Of a DNA stretch of 32,965 nt, positions 5,536 to 16,625 are shown one piece after another. This stretch comes from Parcubacteria group bacterium (lineage in GTDB: Bacteria > Patescibacteriota > Minisyncoccia > UBA6257 > UBA11618), in assembly GCA_943349395.1 (NCBI GenBank), contig CALQZH010000006.1:1-32965 (forward strand), in the 5' to 3' direction. Position 1 is the first letter of the stretch. The number at the start of each line of letters is the position of its first letter. The translations under genes were made by a program, and so were the position numbers. Below the pieces are notes generated by a model. That model had not been told where the DNA came from. It saw only the letters and a program-made list of their open reading frames with translations, and ran no database searches.

Positions 5536-7770
5536 CTATTCGGGAAGGCCGAGATCGAGCAGAATACCTTTTAGCGACGGGTACTGAGGCGACTTCTTCA
5601 GGTCCTCGGACCTCATGACCTCGCGCAGGATATTGCGGGCGGCATCGAACTGCCGGTCAAAATAATACACAAGCCCGAGCTTGAGCTTCGACTCCGTATC
5701 GCGAGGATCGAAAAGGAACGCTTGCTGGAAATACCTGATCGAGCGGGCGTAGTCCTCGGCGTCGCCGAAATACGAGCCGAGCATGGCCGCTTCGGGAGCG
5801 CTCTTGGGCTTCCTGCCGAGCGTCTCCGCCGCATCGATCTCGCGGGCCGCGCCAGCCGCATCCCCTATCTGAATCAAGAGCATGCCGTACTCGAAATGCG
5901 AATCACCAACTTGAAGATCGAGAGAGATAGCCCGACGTAATGCATCCGTCGCCCCCTGCTTATCGCCTTTCAAGTACAAGATCTTCGAAAGGATAGAAAG
6001 TGTCGTCTGTCGGCCAGGAGAAAGCTTCTCGGCGGCAATAAGCGCCTGCTCGGCCTCGAAAAGATACGACGCATCGATATCGCTCACGGTCGTCACGAAT
6101 TCGGCGAATGCAATGAAAAAAGAATAGTCGAAAGGGTTGTTGCGGATTGCCGAGCGTAACTCGTCAGCCGCGCGAGCGATCGTTGTGCGCTCGTCGGGAA
6201 GCGCCACATTCTGCTGACGCAATTGTCCGAGAAGCGGCGCGAGATCCTTGCGAACGTAATCGATGTACGGCGTATGCACGGAAAGCGCCTCATCGAATGC
6301 CGCCTTTCCCTCGGGAATACGCCGCTGGATGAACTCGTTTAGCGCCGTCCACTCCGCATGGCTCGCCCGCCACACGGGATAATATGCGAAATAGGAAAGC
6401 GCGACGAAAGCAAGGCTACACGGAACGGCAAACGGAAGGCTTAGAGGATGTTCTGAACGGCTCGAGAGAATATCGGGCTCATCGGAAGAAGCGATATATG
6501 CCGCAACGATCGCGAGCATCACGTAGCTCGTCAGGGTATCGAATGCAAAGAAATTCTGGACGAGATAGGCGGCGAGCAAAGCCGAAAGCCACGGTTCGCG
6601 GCGAGACCGCCATGCGAGAAACCCAAACAGGAAAATATAAAGGGCGAAACCGACCACACCCGTTTCCGCGAGCGATTGTACGAAGGCATTATGAGGCTTG
6701 TCGAACCCGATCTCCCCGAAACCATACCGCAAAAGTCGCGGATCGTAATGCGTATTGAACCCCGCATGGAAATTCTCGGATCCCCAGCCGAAGATCGGCT
6801 TATCGGCGAAAGCTTTGAGACCGATCCGCCACGCCATGAGCCGCGGCGCGGCTTGAAATCCCTGAATAGATAGACGTGAGAAAACAGGTATGGCCTGCCA
6901 CGCGGGATTCGCTCGCGTAACCCAGAAGAAGCATGAAAAAACGATGAGGCAGGCCCATGCGACAGCTATCGCCGCCCGCCCCCTACGCGCAGAAATTCCG
7001 CCTAAAGGAACCGGACGCACGGCATAAAAAAGGGATAGGACGACGAGCCCGGTAATGAATCCAAGGAGAGCGCCGCGGGTCTGCGTCATCAGCATCACGA
7101 CCGTATCGAACAAGGCGATAACCGCGAAAAATGCGGCGAATCCCCTCTCCCTCCCCGCCCACGCCTGAAACGCATAGTGTCCCGCTATGAAGATATGGAA
7201 CAGAAGATATGCGGCGAGGAATATCGGATTACCAACGGTTCCCGAAAACCGATCGCCAACTGCCTCGAAGAAAATCGAAGGGAAAATGAGCTGGAGCACG
7301 GGAAAAAAGGCCACGAGAAAGCTCGCGCCTGACGACCATGCGAGGTACGTCCTCCAAGCAGCCAAGCCTCGGATCATCCCGGAAAGCATGACGAAAAACG
7401 CCCCTATATGAAGGATGAGAAAAAGGCCTGTCATCCGCTCGGGAATGGACCAGAAACTGCGCGCGAAATCGATGCCCAGCGCAGATGATAAGAAGAGAAC
7501 GGTAAAATAGGCGAGAAGTGCGAAACCGATGGCGCTCCGTCGCGGACGGAACTTGGGCTCGGCATAAGCGAGAACGGCATAGCACGCGGAAATAAGTGCG
7601 ATCAAAATCTCGAAAAAAAGGGTTTTCGCGGTGATGAGAGGACTCATCAAATGATGCTGGAATACGAGCGGCGTGAATAATAAGGCATAAAGCCCGAATA
7701 TCACGAAACGTCGCATGGAGAGGGAGAAAAGCATAGAGAGAGGGATTATATGGGCATAATCATACGGCAA
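5536..7770 (-). CDS. O-antigen ligase / Wzy-type polymerase with C-terminal TPR-like region
   Basis: Multi-TM N-terminal half, PIFGWGSENFHAGFNTHYDPR...DKPHNAFVQSLAETGVVGFALYIFLFG (Wzy_C), then TPR-like helical repeats. Start may be internal (MLFSLSMRRF). Confidence 0.85.
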   Translation of the reverse strand: MPYDYAHIIPLSMLFSLSMRRFVIFGLYALLFTPLVFQHHLMSPLITAKTLFFEILIALISACYAVLAYAEPKFRPRRSAIGFALLAYFTVLFLSSALGIDFARSFWSIPERMTGLFLILHIGAFFVMLSGMIRGLAAWRTYLAWSSGASFLVAFFPVLQLIFPSIFFEAVGDRFSGTVGNPIFLAAYLLFHIFIAGHYAFQAWAGRERGFAAFFAVIALFDTVVMLMTQTRGALLGFITGLVVLSLFYAVRPVPLGGISARRGRAAIAVAWACLIVFSCFFWVTRANPAWQAIPVFSRLSIQGFQAAPRLMAWRIGLKAFADKPIFGWGSENFHAGFNTHYDPRLLRYGFGEIGFDKPHNAFVQSLAETGVVGFALYIFLFGFLAWRSRREPWLSALLAAYLVQNFFAFDTLTSYVMLAIVAAYIASSDEPDILSSRSEHPLSLPFAVPCSLAFVALSYFAYYPVWRASHAEWTALNEFIQRRIPEGKAAFDEALSVHTPYIDYVRKDLAPLLGQLRQQNVALPDERTTIARAADELRSAIRNNPFDYSFFIAFAEFVTTVSDIDASYLFEAEQALIAAEKLSPGRQTTLSILSKILYLKGDKQGATDALRRAISLDLQVGDSHFEYGMLLIQIGDAAGAAREIDAAETLGRKPKSAPEAAMLGSYFGDAEDYARSIRYFQQAFLFDPRDTESKLKLGLVYYFDRQFDAARNILREVMRSEDLKKSPQYPSLKGILLDLGLPE

Positions 7771-7771
7771 A

Positions 7772-7806
7772 AGCCCCTGGCTCTCAAGACCAGGGGCTGT
7801 ATTGCC
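7772..7806 (-). terminator. Intrinsic terminator downstream of the S-layer-like gene
   Basis: Minus strand AGCCCCTGG-TCTTGAGAG-CCAGGGGCT followed by TTT: 9-bp GC-rich perfect stem with a T run. Confidence 0.6.
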
Positions 7807-7836
7807 TACGCTACACCACTATACCTAATTCCCAGG

Positions 7837-10800
7837 CTATTCGTAACTGACTGTTCCGATAAGCAAGGGGTAGGTAAGCGAGGGGTCCCACGTGATACCC
7901 GTACCCGTGCTCGTACCATCAGTCCACAAGAGTCCGCTTGAGGTATTGACAGTCACAGAGACCGAGTCCGCCGTGTTGGCGTTCTGGGTGAAGTTGACGG
8001 CATCGACCCTCAACTTAATACCCTTGGTCGTTCCGGCGCTGATAAGCGCGTTAGGAGCGAAGGTTACCGTGCAGGTATTACCCGCTATAGGCGTACAGGT
8101 CTGCGAGGTCGTCGCACTGCCCCAACCGCTGCCAGGGGTATCCGAGTCGATAAGTTCGACAGGGAAGGCCGTCGCTCCGCTCGTAACCGCCAAACCGGCG
8201 AACTTGAGAACGACAGTGCTCATCGTGAGCGAAAACTGGCTGCTCGCGCTGAAGTTGAGCATTGCGATCTCATCGCCGCTACCGCGAGTCCTGCCGGACA
8301 CTGCGCCGAGTATGGTCGACGTAAGCGACGGCTTGGAGCGGTACACGATCTGCGCGGAGTTCGATCCGGACGGAGTTCCCGAGACAGTCGTTGCCTGGCT
8401 CGAGTCCTTGCCGAATGCGATCACGCTCGTCGTGGCGCTGATGCCGAACACGTGCGAGGATCCGGACTTCGCGCCGTTCGAGCTGAAGGACACGACATCG
8501 CCCTTCAGGGTAACGGTCTTCGCGGTGTTCTTCGGAATGATGAACGTCGATCCGGAACCGAGGCTGAACGCGATCGTCGAGCTCGCGCTCGAGCTACCCA
8601 TGACGGGAGCATTGATCGTCGCAAGCAAGGTCGCGCCATCGTACAACGCGAGGTTGCTGAACGCGGTTCCGCCGCTCGTGTTGTTGGTGATCGTGTCGCG
8701 GAAGGTGATGTCCGTCACGCGGATATCTTCCGTGTTGTCGGCTTCGAGCCTCAGCTTGTAGAGGACGTTATCCGTCGACTCCATGACGAGGTACTTCGAA
8801 GACGTGTTAGACGAGTCGGTCGTGAGGGTCAGCGTGGATCCGGAAGAAATCGTCAGACTCTGTCCGTTCGCCACCGCGGGCCATGTAATCGCGCTATTCG
8901 ACGTCTGTCCGTTCGCGCTACCAGTCGAGAGGTCGAAGACCGTCGAGTGGGTCGCCTGCGTCGTAGACGTCAGGATGTCCGCGTACAGATCAACCGTAAC
9001 CGAACCGCCGGCCGGGACGATGATCGGGTTCGAGCCCGAGAACGACATGGCCAAATCGGTGTCGCCGACGATCGCCTGCGTGGTGCCGAACTGCGTTCCG
9101 CCGACCATTACCCGGAGGTTCTGGGCGTCGAAGAGGTCATTGGCCTCTTTCCTGAACGTGAGGGTCGATACCTTCTCTCCTTCTGCCGACGAGGCGTTCA
9201 AGATGAAGGATGCGACACGCACGCCGTTCGCACCCGCGACATTGGTCGAGGTTCCGAACGAGGGGTTCGTTGCAACCGTGAGCGGAGTCGTGGCAATTAC
9301 GAGCGAATTACCGTTCGCAGTGCCGCCAACCGATGAAACAAACGAGATCTGGCCCTCCAAGTTCGCGCTGATAGGCGCTCCCAAGGACGCGCGCAGGCTC
9401 GTGATGTTCGCGGTGCTCAACAGGTCAACCTTCACGGACAGCACGCGAGTCGTGTTGGCCGGAACGATGTAGTTGATGTACGACGAGCTCGTGCCGAAGT
9501 CTATGTCACACGAAGTGGAAGCGATAGACCCCGTAACGTTCGCGCTGTCGCAACTCGACTGGCCCCAAGAGCCGGAAGGCGAGGAAACTGTAGTTCCCAC
9601 GGAATTTCCGACATCGTCGATGACGGAGATGTTGCGAACGTCTCCGCTCACCGCGCCCGAGCTGTCACCGACGTTCAAGAGGGTAACGGGCAAGAAGCGA
9701 ACCTTGACCGGCTCGCCTCCCGCATAGAGGCTGAACTTCGCAAGGGTGATATTCGACGCGCCGAGCGGAATATTCGCCGTCGGAGTCGACGTATCCTTGT
9801 TGACCGTCACGCGGCCCTGGTTGATCGTAACCGTGGTCGGCGTTCCGGACGTCGTCGCAGTCACGTTCGTGTTGTACTGCGTGTCGTAGAAAACCGCGTC
9901 ATAGGGGCGGAGTATGTTCCACGCCATGGTGCGGTTCGGGCTTCCTGCTACATCAACGCGCACCTCGAAGGTGTTGTTACCGGTCGGGATGCGGACATCG
10001 GTAGTCGGAATGAAGACGACTTTGCCGTCCACACCGATCATCGAAGCCGTCGCGACGGCGACGCCATTGATGCTCAATTTCGCGTTCTTGAGGTCTGCCG
10101 TGTTCGCGGAACCGACAACGGTGAACTTAAGACTCTTCAAGAGAACTGCGCTGTTCGTCACGTTGACGGTCGCGGAGTGCGCGAGGAACGCGTTCGTTCC
10201 CGCATCGACGGTCGAACCGGACGAGGCGTAGGTGTAGGACACCGCGCCAAGAGACGGATTCGTGACCGTGGTAACGGTCAAGGTCGGGCCCGATACCGGC
10301 AAGCCGGTTACCGCGCCGTTTCCTGCGGTCGTCACCATGTCCAGCCTCCATCCGAGCGTGTTGCCCGCGGATGCGGACGAGCTCAAATCCATGCGGAGGG
10401 TAACGACGCGGCTCTGGCCGGCGTTAACCATCATGTTCAAGCCGTCGAACATCGCGATGCCGTTGTTCAGGGACGAGTACTGGGCGAATACGACGCCCGA
10501 TTCATCAGCCAAGTATAAGTTGCTGATGTTGCTGTCGCTTACCACGCCCGTGCGGGAAAGCTTCAGGTTCGTGACCGTGACGCCGGCCATGTTCGATGCC
10601 GTGAAGGTGTACTTCGCGACGTCAATCTGTCCTGCGCCTGCGATCGCGCTGCCGGAGGGCTGCATGCCCGCCGCGCTAACCGAGACGCCTGCTCCCGGAA
10701 CCGTGGTTCCCGGAACCGTCGGCATCGTCGGCATCGTCGGGTTCGGCATAGTGGTACCGTCCGCCATCATCGAGGCGTACTTCGCGCGCGAAATCGCGCC

Positions 10801-11097
10801 GAAAAAGCCTGATGCGGGTGAGACGCCTGCCGCCATCTGCCACTTCACAACTGCCGCCTTGGTCAAAGAACCAAAGTAGCCCGTCGGAGTCGCCGAGAGG
10901 AGGCCGCCGGCTACCAACGCGTTCTGGAGGCAGGTTACGTCTGCACCACGGCTACCCACTGTGAGGCTGCGGGTAAACGTGCACGACATGGTCTGCGCTC
11001 CCGACACTGCGGGGATCGCCAACGCCGCTCCCGAAAACACCGCAACGGTCGTTGCGGAAAGGGCGACGGAATAGATCTGTCTTACTGTTTTGCTCAT
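7837..11097 (-). CDS. Large secreted cell-surface (S-layer-like) protein with N-terminal peptidoglycan-binding domain
   Basis: 1086 aa; signal peptide (MSKTVRQIYSVALSATTVAVFSGAALAIPAVSGAQ), PG-binding-1-like VGSRGADVTCLQNALVAGGLLSATPTGYFGSLTKAAVVKWQMAAGV, Pro/Thr linker, then long Ser/Thr/Val/Gly-rich beta-type repeats. Confidence 0.85.
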   Translation of the reverse strand: MSKTVRQIYSVALSATTVAVFSGAALAIPAVSGAQTMSCTFTRSLTVGSRGADVTCLQNALVAGGLLSATPTGYFGSLTKAAVVKWQMAAGVSPASGFFGAISRAKYASMMADGTTMPNPTMPTMPTVPGTTVPGAGVSVSAAGMQPSGSAIAGAGQIDVAKYTFTASNMAGVTVTNLKLSRTGVVSDSNISNLYLADESGVVFAQYSSLNNGIAMFDGLNMMVNAGQSRVVTLRMDLSSSASAGNTLGWRLDMVTTAGNGAVTGLPVSGPTLTVTTVTNPSLGAVSYTYASSGSTVDAGTNAFLAHSATVNVTNSAVLLKSLKFTVVGSANTADLKNAKLSINGVAVATASMIGVDGKVVFIPTTDVRIPTGNNTFEVRVDVAGSPNRTMAWNILRPYDAVFYDTQYNTNVTATTSGTPTTVTINQGRVTVNKDTSTPTANIPLGASNITLAKFSLYAGGEPVKVRFLPVTLLNVGDSSGAVSGDVRNISVIDDVGNSVGTTVSSPSGSWGQSSCDSANVTGSIASTSCDIDFGTSSSYINYIVPANTTRVLSVKVDLLSTANITSLRASLGAPISANLEGQISFVSSVGGTANGNSLVIATTPLTVATNPSFGTSTNVAGANGVRVASFILNASSAEGEKVSTLTFRKEANDLFDAQNLRVMVGGTQFGTTQAIVGDTDLAMSFSGSNPIIVPAGGSVTVDLYADILTSTTQATHSTVFDLSTGSANGQTSNSAITWPAVANGQSLTISSGSTLTLTTDSSNTSSKYLVMESTDNVLYKLRLEADNTEDIRVTDITFRDTITNNTSGGTAFSNLALYDGATLLATINAPVMGSSSASSTIAFSLGSGSTFIIPKNTAKTVTLKGDVVSFSSNGAKSGSSHVFGISATTSVIAFGKDSSQATTVSGTPSGSNSAQIVYRSKPSLTSTILGAVSGRTRGSGDEIAMLNFSASSQFSLTMSTVVLKFAGLAVTSGATAFPVELIDSDTPGSGWGSATTSQTCTPIAGNTCTVTFAPNALISAGTTKGIKLRVDAVNFTQNANTADSVSVTVNTSSGLLWTDGTSTGTGITWDPSLTYPLLIGTVSYE

Positions 11098-11242
11098 TTG
11101 TATGTTTGGTTTATGCGACTGACGAATTGATTATCTTTCTATTCTTTCCAAAGATTATCCTCATAACCATCGACCTCACATTACCTGATTATGAAACAAT
11201 CTCTAAACACAAAGTGAATTTTCAGGCCTAGTGCCTAAAAAG

Positions 11243-11263
11243 AAAAACCGGACATGGGTCCGG
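11243..11263 (-). terminator. Intrinsic terminator of the candidate small RNA
   Basis: CCGGAC/GTCCGG 6-bp stem, 4-nt loop, followed by TTTTTCTTTTT on the minus strand. Confidence 0.7.
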
Positions 11264-11351
11264 AGGCTGAAAGGCAGGGAAATCGATCCCTGCTAAGCAA
11301 ACGATATGCCCGGTTCAGCCTCACCTGAACCTGTTCATACGTGGATTTTCG
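11243..11351 (-). ncRNA. Candidate structured small RNA / leader RNA
   Basis: Own sigma70-like promoter, three perfect stems (11312-11318/11325-11331; 11263-11271/11314-11322; GCAGGGA/TCCCTGC), terminating in CCGGAC-CCAT-GTCCGG-TTTTTCTTTTT. Confidence 0.6.
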
Positions 11352-11357
11352 CTTTAG

Positions 11358-11387
11358 AGCATACCGCATAATGCATGCGGAAGTCAA
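11358..11387 (-). promoter_or_regulatory. Sigma70-type promoter for the candidate small RNA
   Basis: Minus strand TTGACT (11387-11382), 18 nt spacer, TATGCT (11363-11358). Confidence 0.6.
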
Positions 11388-11458
11388 GCGAAATTACAGG
11401 CCTGAACAGTATATATAACGAATGGACACCTATAAGTGTTTCACGATATATATAAACT

Positions 11459-13360
11459 ATGCCCTACACACGCTCTTCGCGATTATTCATATATATAGCC
11501 CTTATTGCGCCCCTTATTATAGACCGATCGTTATTTTTCCCCTTCATAACGGGAAAAGCCCTATTTTTCAGGCTTTTCATAGAATTAGCATGTGTCGCGG
11601 CTATCGGGGCCATCGTCCGCGGAGAACTATCGCTGAAAATCCTACGAAAAACGGCTAAAAATCCAGTATTTATTAGTATTTTTGCGTTTTTAGGACTCAC
11701 CGTCATAAGCTCCCTAACCGCCCAAAACCCCTCATTTGCCTTTTGGTCGAATTTCGAACGAGGTGAAGGCGCCTGGCAGATCCTTCATTACTGCCTATTA
11801 TGCGCATTATTGCTCATTTTTTTTCGAACCGAACACGACTGGAAAAAGCTTATCGGATGGCAATCCATCATAAGCTGCCTCGTAGCCCTCTATGCGATAG
11901 GACAAGGACTAGCAAGTATCGTTTTAAAACAATATGGAGCGACTAAGGCCCAAATCATTACCAACTGGATCATAAACCCCTCGCCAGGAAGTCCTCCCTC
12001 GGGAAGCCTTGGAAATCCGTCGTATTTAGGCGGATACATGCTTTTCAGCGCCTTTTTGACGCTCTATCTCATACTAGAAACCCCTAAAGGAAAAGCACGA
12101 ATCGCATGGATCCTAGCATTTGCCCTGCAAACGATCATGTTCTTCAACGCAGAAACGCGTGGATCGTTCGCGGCACTCGGCGCGGGAATCTTGATAATGC
12201 TGGTATTGTGGGCGTCTCGAACAAAGCGAGACCTGAAGCGCAACTTCGCCCTCGGCGGCGCGGCACTTCTCATAACGTGCAGTATCGGATACCTAATCCT
12301 AAACATAAAAGGGGATGCCCTGAAGAGCCTAGAGCCCCGATTTTGGACATGGGGATCGGCGATTGCGGGAGTAATCGAAAAACCGCTCATCGGCTGGGGA
12401 ACGGAAAACTTTCCGGCAGTATTCGATAAATACTACAATCCCCACCACTACGGCATAGAATCGTGGTTCGACCGCGCGCATAACACGTTCCTCGAATATG
12501 CGACAAGCGGCGGAATCCCTCTCCTCCTAGCCTATATCGCCATCTTCGTCACCCTCTATATGCGCCTATGGAGACGCAAGAACGAGGGACTATGGCCGCT
12601 TGTGATGGCATTGCCCGCAATGTACCTCGTGAACGGGCTCGTCCTCTTCGAGATTCTCCCTCTCTATATAATACTCTTCTTCATGGTCGCGTTCCTCGTG
12701 TGCTACGCCGACGACTTCGAGATAGATCATGAAACGATGCGCCAAACCGAGTCGAAGCCATGGGCAGGGACCGTTATCGTGGTGATGATCGCGCTTCTCG
12801 CGATATCCTCCTACGCGACAATCTGGCTGCCGTTCAAGAAAAATACGCTCATGCTTACGGCGCTCCAAACGAACGGCAAGACGGATAACGACGCATTCAG
12901 GGAGAATTACGAGGCCATCTCCTTCGGCTCGCCCGTCGGAAACCAGGAAGCCGTGCAAAATCTCTACGCCTTTACCGTCGGATATTTCGAATTCCTAAAG
13001 AACAACGACCTCGTGAAACAGATTCCGAAAGATAAGATTAAGGTGATCATGGATAATAATAAGATGTGGCACAAAAAAACGGCTTACGATGCGGTCGGCC
13101 TGAAAACGGAATGCGGCTACATCACGGCCCTACTTGCAGCCGCGCAGGCAACCGGCGACACCTCGTACCTGAAAGAAGCGGAGGATCTCACGAAGAAAGC
13201 CACGGAAATCTCTCCCACCCGACTCGAATTCGTGCGTTTCGAAATGGCGATAGCAGTCCTCGAAAAAGACGCGAAAGCATACGGAGAGGCGCGGAAAAAA
13301 GGTATGGCCCTACGCCCCGATCTTCCCTGGGAGGCCTCGATCGATAAATTCGTGTATTGA
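11459..13360 (+). CDS. Second O-antigen ligase / Wzy-family protein (PglL-like possible)
   Basis: 633 aa; multi-TM; IGWGTENFPAVFDKYYNPHHYGIESWFDRAHNTFLEYATSGGIPLLLAYIAIF parallels the 5536-7770 protein, with a C-terminal helical extension. Confidence 0.85.
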   Translation: MPYTRSSRLFIYIALIAPLIIDRSLFFPFITGKALFFRLFIELACVAAIGAIVRGELSLKILRKTAKNPVFISIFAFLGLTVISSLTAQNPSFAFWSNFERGEGAWQILHYCLLCALLLIFFRTEHDWKKLIGWQSIISCLVALYAIGQGLASIVLKQYGATKAQIITNWIINPSPGSPPSGSLGNPSYLGGYMLFSAFLTLYLILETPKGKARIAWILAFALQTIMFFNAETRGSFAALGAGILIMLVLWASRTKRDLKRNFALGGAALLITCSIGYLILNIKGDALKSLEPRFWTWGSAIAGVIEKPLIGWGTENFPAVFDKYYNPHHYGIESWFDRAHNTFLEYATSGGIPLLLAYIAIFVTLYMRLWRRKNEGLWPLVMALPAMYLVNGLVLFEILPLYIILFFMVAFLVCYADDFEIDHETMRQTESKPWAGTVIVVMIALLAISSYATIWLPFKKNTLMLTALQTNGKTDNDAFRENYEAISFGSPVGNQEAVQNLYAFTVGYFEFLKNNDLVKQIPKDKIKVIMDNNKMWHKKTAYDAVGLKTECGYITALLAAAQATGDTSYLKEAEDLTKKATEISPTRLEFVRFEMAIAVLEKDAKAYGEARKKGMALRPDLPWEASIDKFVY

Positions 13361-14000
13361 AACAATACTTCCCTAAAGACGCCAGTAGGAGCTTAGGGCT
13401 ATGACGCCTAAAAGCGAGACGAAAAGAAAGGCTCTCCGGAATGACAAGCGACCCTCATGAAGGGTGTCGCCCATGAAAAGGAGCGTGAGAAATGAGAGGT
13501 TAGCCGAAGAAAGCGGGCCGATCGGGAGCCAGGAGGCCACCCATATGAGCTCGCCCATGACGCAAGCGGCAGGAAACGCCAAACGCGCATCGCGCAAAGC
13601 GACTATGAGCGAACATAGGACGAGAAGGAGAGTAAAAAGCCACGAAACGAGGAATGATCCCGTGGCAACGGATACGAAAAACGAAAGAAGGGAACAATAC
13701 GCGAGGCAATATGCCGTGGATTGCACCCAGAAATCCCGATGCGTAAGAGTGAGATTCTTCACGGAAACGACGATGGCGAACGCGGCGGAAATGACCGCGG
13801 CAAAGGCGACTTGGAAGAAAAGCGATTGAGGGTAGACGGCAAACGGAAGAGAGATGATGACGAAAAGAAGGGGAAGGAGAAGGGAGAAGTTGAAAATGGG
13901 CCGGCTATAGAGGATCGCGACGCATGCGACGTAGGCAATGGCCCACTGCCACAAATGCGCGCGTAAAAAAAGCAGGAGCAGGGAAAAGACGAGTACTCCC

Positions 14001-16625
<2,625 letters not shown>

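Follow-up and report, generated by a model that had tools for sequence, protein, structure and literature searches.

What is the structured segment that lies upstream of a long surface-protein gene at this locus, and does it act as part of the mRNA or as an RNA in its own right? The window, by which we mean the entire 32,965-nucleotide stretch of DNA analysed, comes from a Patescibacteria genome (622 kb, 22 contigs) close to Candidatus Harrisonbacteria, and a Candidatus Harrisonbacteria MAG is the closest relative sharing the locus. A reading based on the letters of the DNA (hereafter the sequence-only reading) had described a promoter, a local hairpin, a 9-bp alternative pairing, an enclosed GCAGGGA/TCCCTGC stem and a terminator, and all of these were located on the minus strand.

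Anatomy of the element and its locus

The putative promoter (11358-11387, minus strand, as are all parts of the element) comprises a -35 box, TTGACT (11387-11382), and a -10 box, TATGCT (11363-11358), separated by an 18-nt spacer. This TTGACT-N18-TATGCT pattern occurs once in the window, compared with 0.01 occurrences expected by chance. It is followed by hairpin P1 (11312-11331), in which the arms GGTTCAG (11331-11325) and CTGAACC (11318-11312) enclose the loop GTGAGG (11324-11319). The 5' strand of the alternative, or anti-terminator, helix, GAGGCTGAA (11314-11322), overlaps the loop and 3' arm of P1, and its partner strand, TTCAGCCTC (11263-11271), lies beyond a variable middle hairpin, P2 (11274-11293), formed by GCAGGGA (11293-11287) and TCCCTGC (11280-11274). 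The element ends with an intrinsic terminator, CCGGAC-CCAT-GTCCGG-TTTTTCTTTTT (11237-11263), whose stem is conserved in relatives and whose tail after GTCCGG reads T5CT5.

The alternative pairing is present as first described, but it proved to be longer, because the GGACC sequence in the terminator 5' arm and loop (11257-11261) can pair with GGUUC of the P1 5' arm (11331-11327) and thereby lengthen the anti-terminator. Since this added pairing is possible before the terminator 3' arm is made, the alternative helix is predicted to be in true competition with the terminator. The window RNA folds better than 200 of 200 dinucleotide shuffles (z = -4.6), and the fold of an 89%-identical homologue also beats its shuffles (z = -3.7).

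The gene presumed to be under control of this element (7837-11097, minus strand) encodes a secreted-looking protein of 1086 amino acids with an N-terminal PG_binding_1 domain, and its start at 11097 lies 139 nt past the terminator. The sequence-only reading had called this gene S-layer-like. A long, secreted-looking ORF with a PG_binding_1 domain is indeed present, but the S-layer label is a suggestion drawn from the length, the secretion-signal-like N-terminus and the PG-binding domain. The intervening leader (11098-11236, minus strand) carries a GGTCGA box at 11175-11170, and its last ~120 nt are identical in the relative designated G001. The gene upstream of the element is divergent. The surface-protein gene lies between two O-antigen ligase-like (Wzy_C) genes (5536-7770, minus strand, and 11459-13360, plus strand), of which one is oriented divergently to it.

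Several other features were considered and set aside. A CATAAT sequence in the leader lacks a suitable -35 box and is absent from the matching stretch of a second, far more diverged relative, G003, and so was rejected as a second promoter. An inverted repeat in the promoter spacer, CCGCAT/ATGCGG, was rejected as a conserved operator because the G001 dyad is in another register and G003 has none. No sigma-70-like site was found on the plus strand near 11200-11400 in a consensus-level scan of 7000-14500, and no tRNA or tmRNA was found in the window.

The element matched none of the RNA classes in Rfam, and the sequence-only reading had not recognised it as tmRNA, SRP RNA, 6S or RNase P. A scan of the window and 16 relatives with Rfam (release 15) yielded no match at the gathering threshold, and when the element was scanned under an E-value cut-off, all matches were at chance level, the best sub-threshold E being 0.37 or worse. 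Identity as SRP RNA was also rejected, because the element lacks the core features of SRP RNA, is restricted to one order and stands before one gene family. The bacterial small SRP RNA model gave no match in the window's own genome, where this RNA may be diverged or may lie in the missing part. Literature searches on S-layer attenuation, riboswitches or attenuators in Patescibacteria, and structured RNAs in Parcubacteria revealed no earlier description.

Conservation of the element upstream of one surface-protein family

The G001 region is 88-89% identical to that of the window, with the same promoter hexamers and P1, and with a terminator that is altered in its loop but not in its stem. The third pair of P2 is changed on both sides in G001, from A-T to G-C. 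Despite its greater divergence, G003 preserves the TTGACT-N18 promoter, the P1 stem, GUGAGG, the AGCCUC segment, the terminator and their order, and its element lies 119 nt ahead of the orthologous gene. Both relatives thus retain TTGACT and the spacing of 18 nt.

A search with the N-terminal 112 residues found relatives of the surface protein in 210 of 245 genomes of the order. The same anatomy, with P1 and its GUGAGG loop near the RNA start, a variable middle and a GCCUC(G/A)C segment running into the terminator, was present upstream of 54 of the 90 loci read. Among these relatives, the length of the middle region varies between about 10 and 140 nt. One locus (L115) carries a 62-nt version, consisting of P1, a short linker and the terminator, before a surface-protein paralogue.

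A covariance model comprising P1 and the terminator (R1), trained on loci picked by their downstream gene, matches 120 of 244 genomes of the order, mostly once per genome, leaving about half of the genomes unmatched. Across a phylum sample of 382 genomes, R1 gave two matches, both in the same order and one of them the window's own genome, so that this search also serves as a negative control for the model. Genome-wide searches with R1 revealed essentially no locations other than before the surface-protein family. There were 99 matches at E of about 1e-4 or better, and for 74 of these a gene match is listed no more than 2.5 kb away. In all 74 the element is upstream of the mapped PG-binding gene and on its strand, at a median distance of 364 nt, and most of the readable cases among the other 25 precede the same kind of ORF. 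Similarly, all 30 matches in the set of named genomes (80 loci) are upstream and on the strand of the gene. Comparison of these sequences demonstrates a link to one family and one strand. Carriers include genomes named Harrisonbacteria, Liptonbacteria, Wolfebacteria, Jorgensenbacteria, Colwellbacteria and Paceibacter, and R1 found no match at loci named Kaiserbacteria, Giovannonibacteria, Nomurabacteria and others.

Covariation and folding energies of the competing helices

Conservation and covariation among relatives, the lack of which would have spoken against a structured RNA, are strong. The GUGAGG loop is found in every clear member, in part by construction because members were recognised by GTGAGG, while the P1 stem varies freely. 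In 44 sequences, 89% of P1 cells are paired and six of the seven pairs change on both sides. The covariation score for P1 plus the terminator is 0.469, versus 0.224 +/- 0.015 in shuffles (0/500 as high) and at most 0.167 when the pairing is slid. Comparative data of this kind demonstrate both P1 and the terminator as helices.

The anti-terminator was evaluated with a separate alignment (A3), which was used for this helix only because the terminator 3' arm is misplaced in it. Its core, GUGAGGC:GCCUC(G/A)C, is pairable nearly always and is near-invariant on both sides, which makes it mostly uninformative for covariation. The first free position after GAGGC pairs as UA, CG, AU, GC, UG or GU (z = 5.5; 0/5000 shuffles), with pairs other than UA in at least six of the families to which the loci were mapped. 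When all 11 pairs were considered, in shuffle tests that, like the others here, ignore relatedness, the number of paired cells (1/500), the number of doubly changed cells (2/500) and the score (3/500) stood above the shuffles, and the number of pairs changed on both sides (232/500) and the number of pair types (162/500) did not. These comparisons indicate that a mutually exclusive anti-terminator using the terminator 5' arm has been kept by compensatory change, with the support concentrated at one pair. In the window's own lineage, only four of the six core positions pair, together with a CUGAA extension.

Calculated folding energies agree with a competition between these structures. As long as the terminator 3' arm is still missing, the anti-terminator fold is more stable than the P1 fold at 43 of 52 loci (median 6.3 kcal/mol); once that arm is present, the two folds are near balance (median 2.3). 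For the window, the anti-terminator fold is at -36.3 versus -35.1 for the P1 fold before the 3' arm, and at -38.3 versus -44.6 for the terminated fold after it. The finished window RNA therefore favours termination by 6 kcal/mol, and any read-through in the window would depend on kinetics or on assistance. In G003, the P1 5' arm pairs with a changed terminator arm, GGAUC, and the energies are nearly equal. The alternative helix and its competition with P1 and the terminator are thus demonstrated insofar as comparative sequence and modelled energies can do so.

A complement of the P1 loop in the downstream leader

All hexamers were counted in the leaders downstream of the terminator, without reference to P1. 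The most over-represented is CCTCAC, present in 36 of 52 leaders versus 1.0 expected, a hexamer whose reverse complement is precisely the P1 loop. Folding predictions place it in the loop of a hairpin in 22 of these 36 leaders, versus 7.9 +/- 2.5 after shuffling of the flanks, and the stems are mostly different. The second most over-represented hexamer is GGTCGA, found in 42 leaders versus 2.5 expected. These boxes follow the CCTCAC hairpin (for example in L034, L059, L067, L071 and L100); most loci have a single box, and some have as many as four.

The P1 loop could therefore pair with CCUCGC in the terminator arm, through a U-G pair, or with CCUCAC in the leader, through a U-A pair. The U of the loop is never C, even though, judging by duplex energies, C would be the stronger partner for the terminator arm, and the existence of two partners would explain this constraint. 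Comparison by eye revealed no complementarity between P1 and the leader loop beyond 6 nt, as the flanking bases do not correspond, and a kissing interaction would thus be limited to 6 bp. No CCUCAC hairpin of the kind seen in relatives (P4) can be recognised in the window's leader, and G003 has UCUCAC. The leader loop appears to have degenerated in the window's lineage, which makes the nature of the trigger more uncertain for this genome.

A proposed attenuation mechanism

We conclude from these comparisons that the surface-protein mRNA probably (at about 75%) begins with a transcription attenuator that acts in cis. RNA polymerase would start just upstream of P1, at the predicted promoter. As long as P1 is folded, neither its loop nor its 3' arm would be available, the terminator would form, and a short RNA of about 110 nt would be released. 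If, instead, the GUGAGG loop and the 3' arm of P1 pair with the GCCUC(G/A)C segment as it emerges, the resulting anti-terminator would occupy the terminator 5' arm, and polymerase would presumably read through into the surface-protein gene, an event that we expect to be regulated.

The best candidate for a trigger is an RNA loop, namely the CCUCAC leader hairpin that is present in most relatives and is complementary to GUGAGG. By kissing nascent P1, the surface-protein mRNA could block nucleation of the anti-terminator and so repress its own synthesis. We put forward such RNA-only autoregulation, in which the mRNA loop would act in trans to shut off its own transcription, tentatively and at odds well short of even.

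Alternative explanations

The sequence-only reading had proposed either an attenuator- or riboswitch-like leader or a free small RNA, and the conservation, the covariation and the gene link uphold this pair of options, of which the leader is favoured and the free RNA has fared less well. The latter would be an RNA of ~110 nt with its own promoter and terminator that kisses CCUCAC loops in trans, with the alternative helix being incidental. Its appeal lies in the compact promoter-to-terminator unit, in the exact complementarity of the P1 and leader loops, and in the loop U, which pairs with G in most terminators and with A in the leader, is never C, and so suggests a second partner. A consensus-level scan, which non-consensus promoters would escape, revealed no sigma-70-like promoter above background between the terminator and the leader hairpin: -10-like boxes occur in 11% of windows there, which is the background level, versus 43% of loci before P1 and 10% of other upstream sequence. 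In two genomes (L110 and L111), a single surface-protein gene is preceded by two full copies in tandem, of which only the first has a TATAAT in front of it, an arrangement expected of serial attenuators on one transcript. In one genome (L112), a second-site copy with its own TATAAT lies 33 nt before the ORF of a secreted protein of 505 or more amino acids that has no Pfam match. The enrichment of promoter boxes before P1, the tandem copies on one promoter and the copy only 33 nt before its ORF point to a cis-acting transcription attenuator, and the covariation of the alternative helix and the constant position beside one gene family, on its strand, likewise weigh against a free RNA, which we judge to be unlikely.

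A cis-acting attenuator might respond to something other than an RNA loop. An RNA-binding protein that recognises the (A/U)GUGAGG hairpin, with the CCUCAC hairpin as a separate or decoy site, would account for an invariant loop on a stem that is free to vary, as is seen in protein-bound hairpins, and the repeated GGTCGA boxes resemble binding sites. However, the two pairing partners already account for the loop invariance, and no candidate protein was identified, which leaves a protein trigger rather doubtful. Mutually exclusive stems before a terminator also recall a metabolite- or ion-sensing riboswitch, but conservation is confined to the P1 loop and its complement, with no conserved pocket or aptamer core; given also a middle region that can shrink to the 62-nt version and the lack of an Rfam riboswitch match, we regard sensing of this kind as highly improbable. 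Even less credible is ribosome-dependent attenuation through a short leader peptide. A five-codon ORF (ATG AAC AGG TTC AGG TGA) does overlap P1 in the window and in G001, but the RNA in relatives appears to start at or just before P1, an ATG is found within 20 nt before the loop in only 12 of 54 loci, and frames from the GTG of the loop are of chance length, so that a conserved short ORF overlapping the competing stems was not found among the relatives. A passive role, as an insulating terminator or as a 5' structure stabilising a long-lived mRNA, would fit a strong hairpin at the 5' end of the mRNA of a family that may be highly expressed in related Paceibacteria (PMC10936435). This role is very unlikely, since the divergent upstream gene provides no transcript to block in the window, and since the covarying alternative helix and the complementary loops would be left unexplained.

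Relation to known regulatory systems

The proposed attenuator most closely recalls the antisense RNA attenuators of the plasmid pT181 type, in which a kissing RNA traps a 5' hairpin containing the anti-terminator (PMC4878617). Here too, a 5' sensing hairpin holds an anti-terminator sequence that would sequester the 5' part of the terminator stem (ON), and a loop kissing this hairpin would trap the anti-terminator and allow termination (OFF). The likeness is one of architecture. The present element differs in being chromosomal and in preceding a surface-protein gene. In addition, no antisense transcript is evident for it, and the complementary loop is in the leader of the same mRNA. If the loops do kiss, the system would be a chromosomal, self-targeting counterpart of the plasmid antisense attenuators.

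Terminator/anti-terminator riboswitches and T-box leaders also place mutually exclusive helices and an intrinsic terminator between promoter and gene, and they occur in tandem copies. The element shares the exclusive helices ending in a terminator and the tandem copies, but it has no conserved aptamer, T-box features or Rfam match, and its conservation is limited to a hairpin loop and the complement of that loop. S-layer genes such as Lactobacillus slpA carry structured or stabilising 5' leaders. The element similarly forms a structured untranslated leader on a gene of surface-layer type, but it differs in having a terminator and a covarying anti-terminator, and in its confinement to one order of Patescibacteria.

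To our knowledge, almost nothing is known of gene regulation in Patescibacteria. An element that is absent from Rfam, is carried by roughly half of the genomes sampled from a single Parcubacteria order and is tied to one surface-protein family is a specific candidate regulator of the cell surface in presumed host-attached organisms. Among the secreted proteins of host-attached Paceibacteria, those with PG-binding domains rank with the most highly expressed (PMC10936435), a possible family link to the present protein being a lead. If kissing feedback operates, a genome-reduced bacterium would meter a major surface protein without a regulatory protein. As a native RNA part, the element could also serve as an expression tool in a group that lacks inducible ones (PMC11665869).

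A different terminator-like hairpin, GGCCG..CGGCC followed by a T-run, was observed about 280-340 nt upstream of a related gene at four loci (L163, L164, L166 and L168), two of them named Kaiserbacteria. The hairpin of this lineage is possibly an analogous attenuator.
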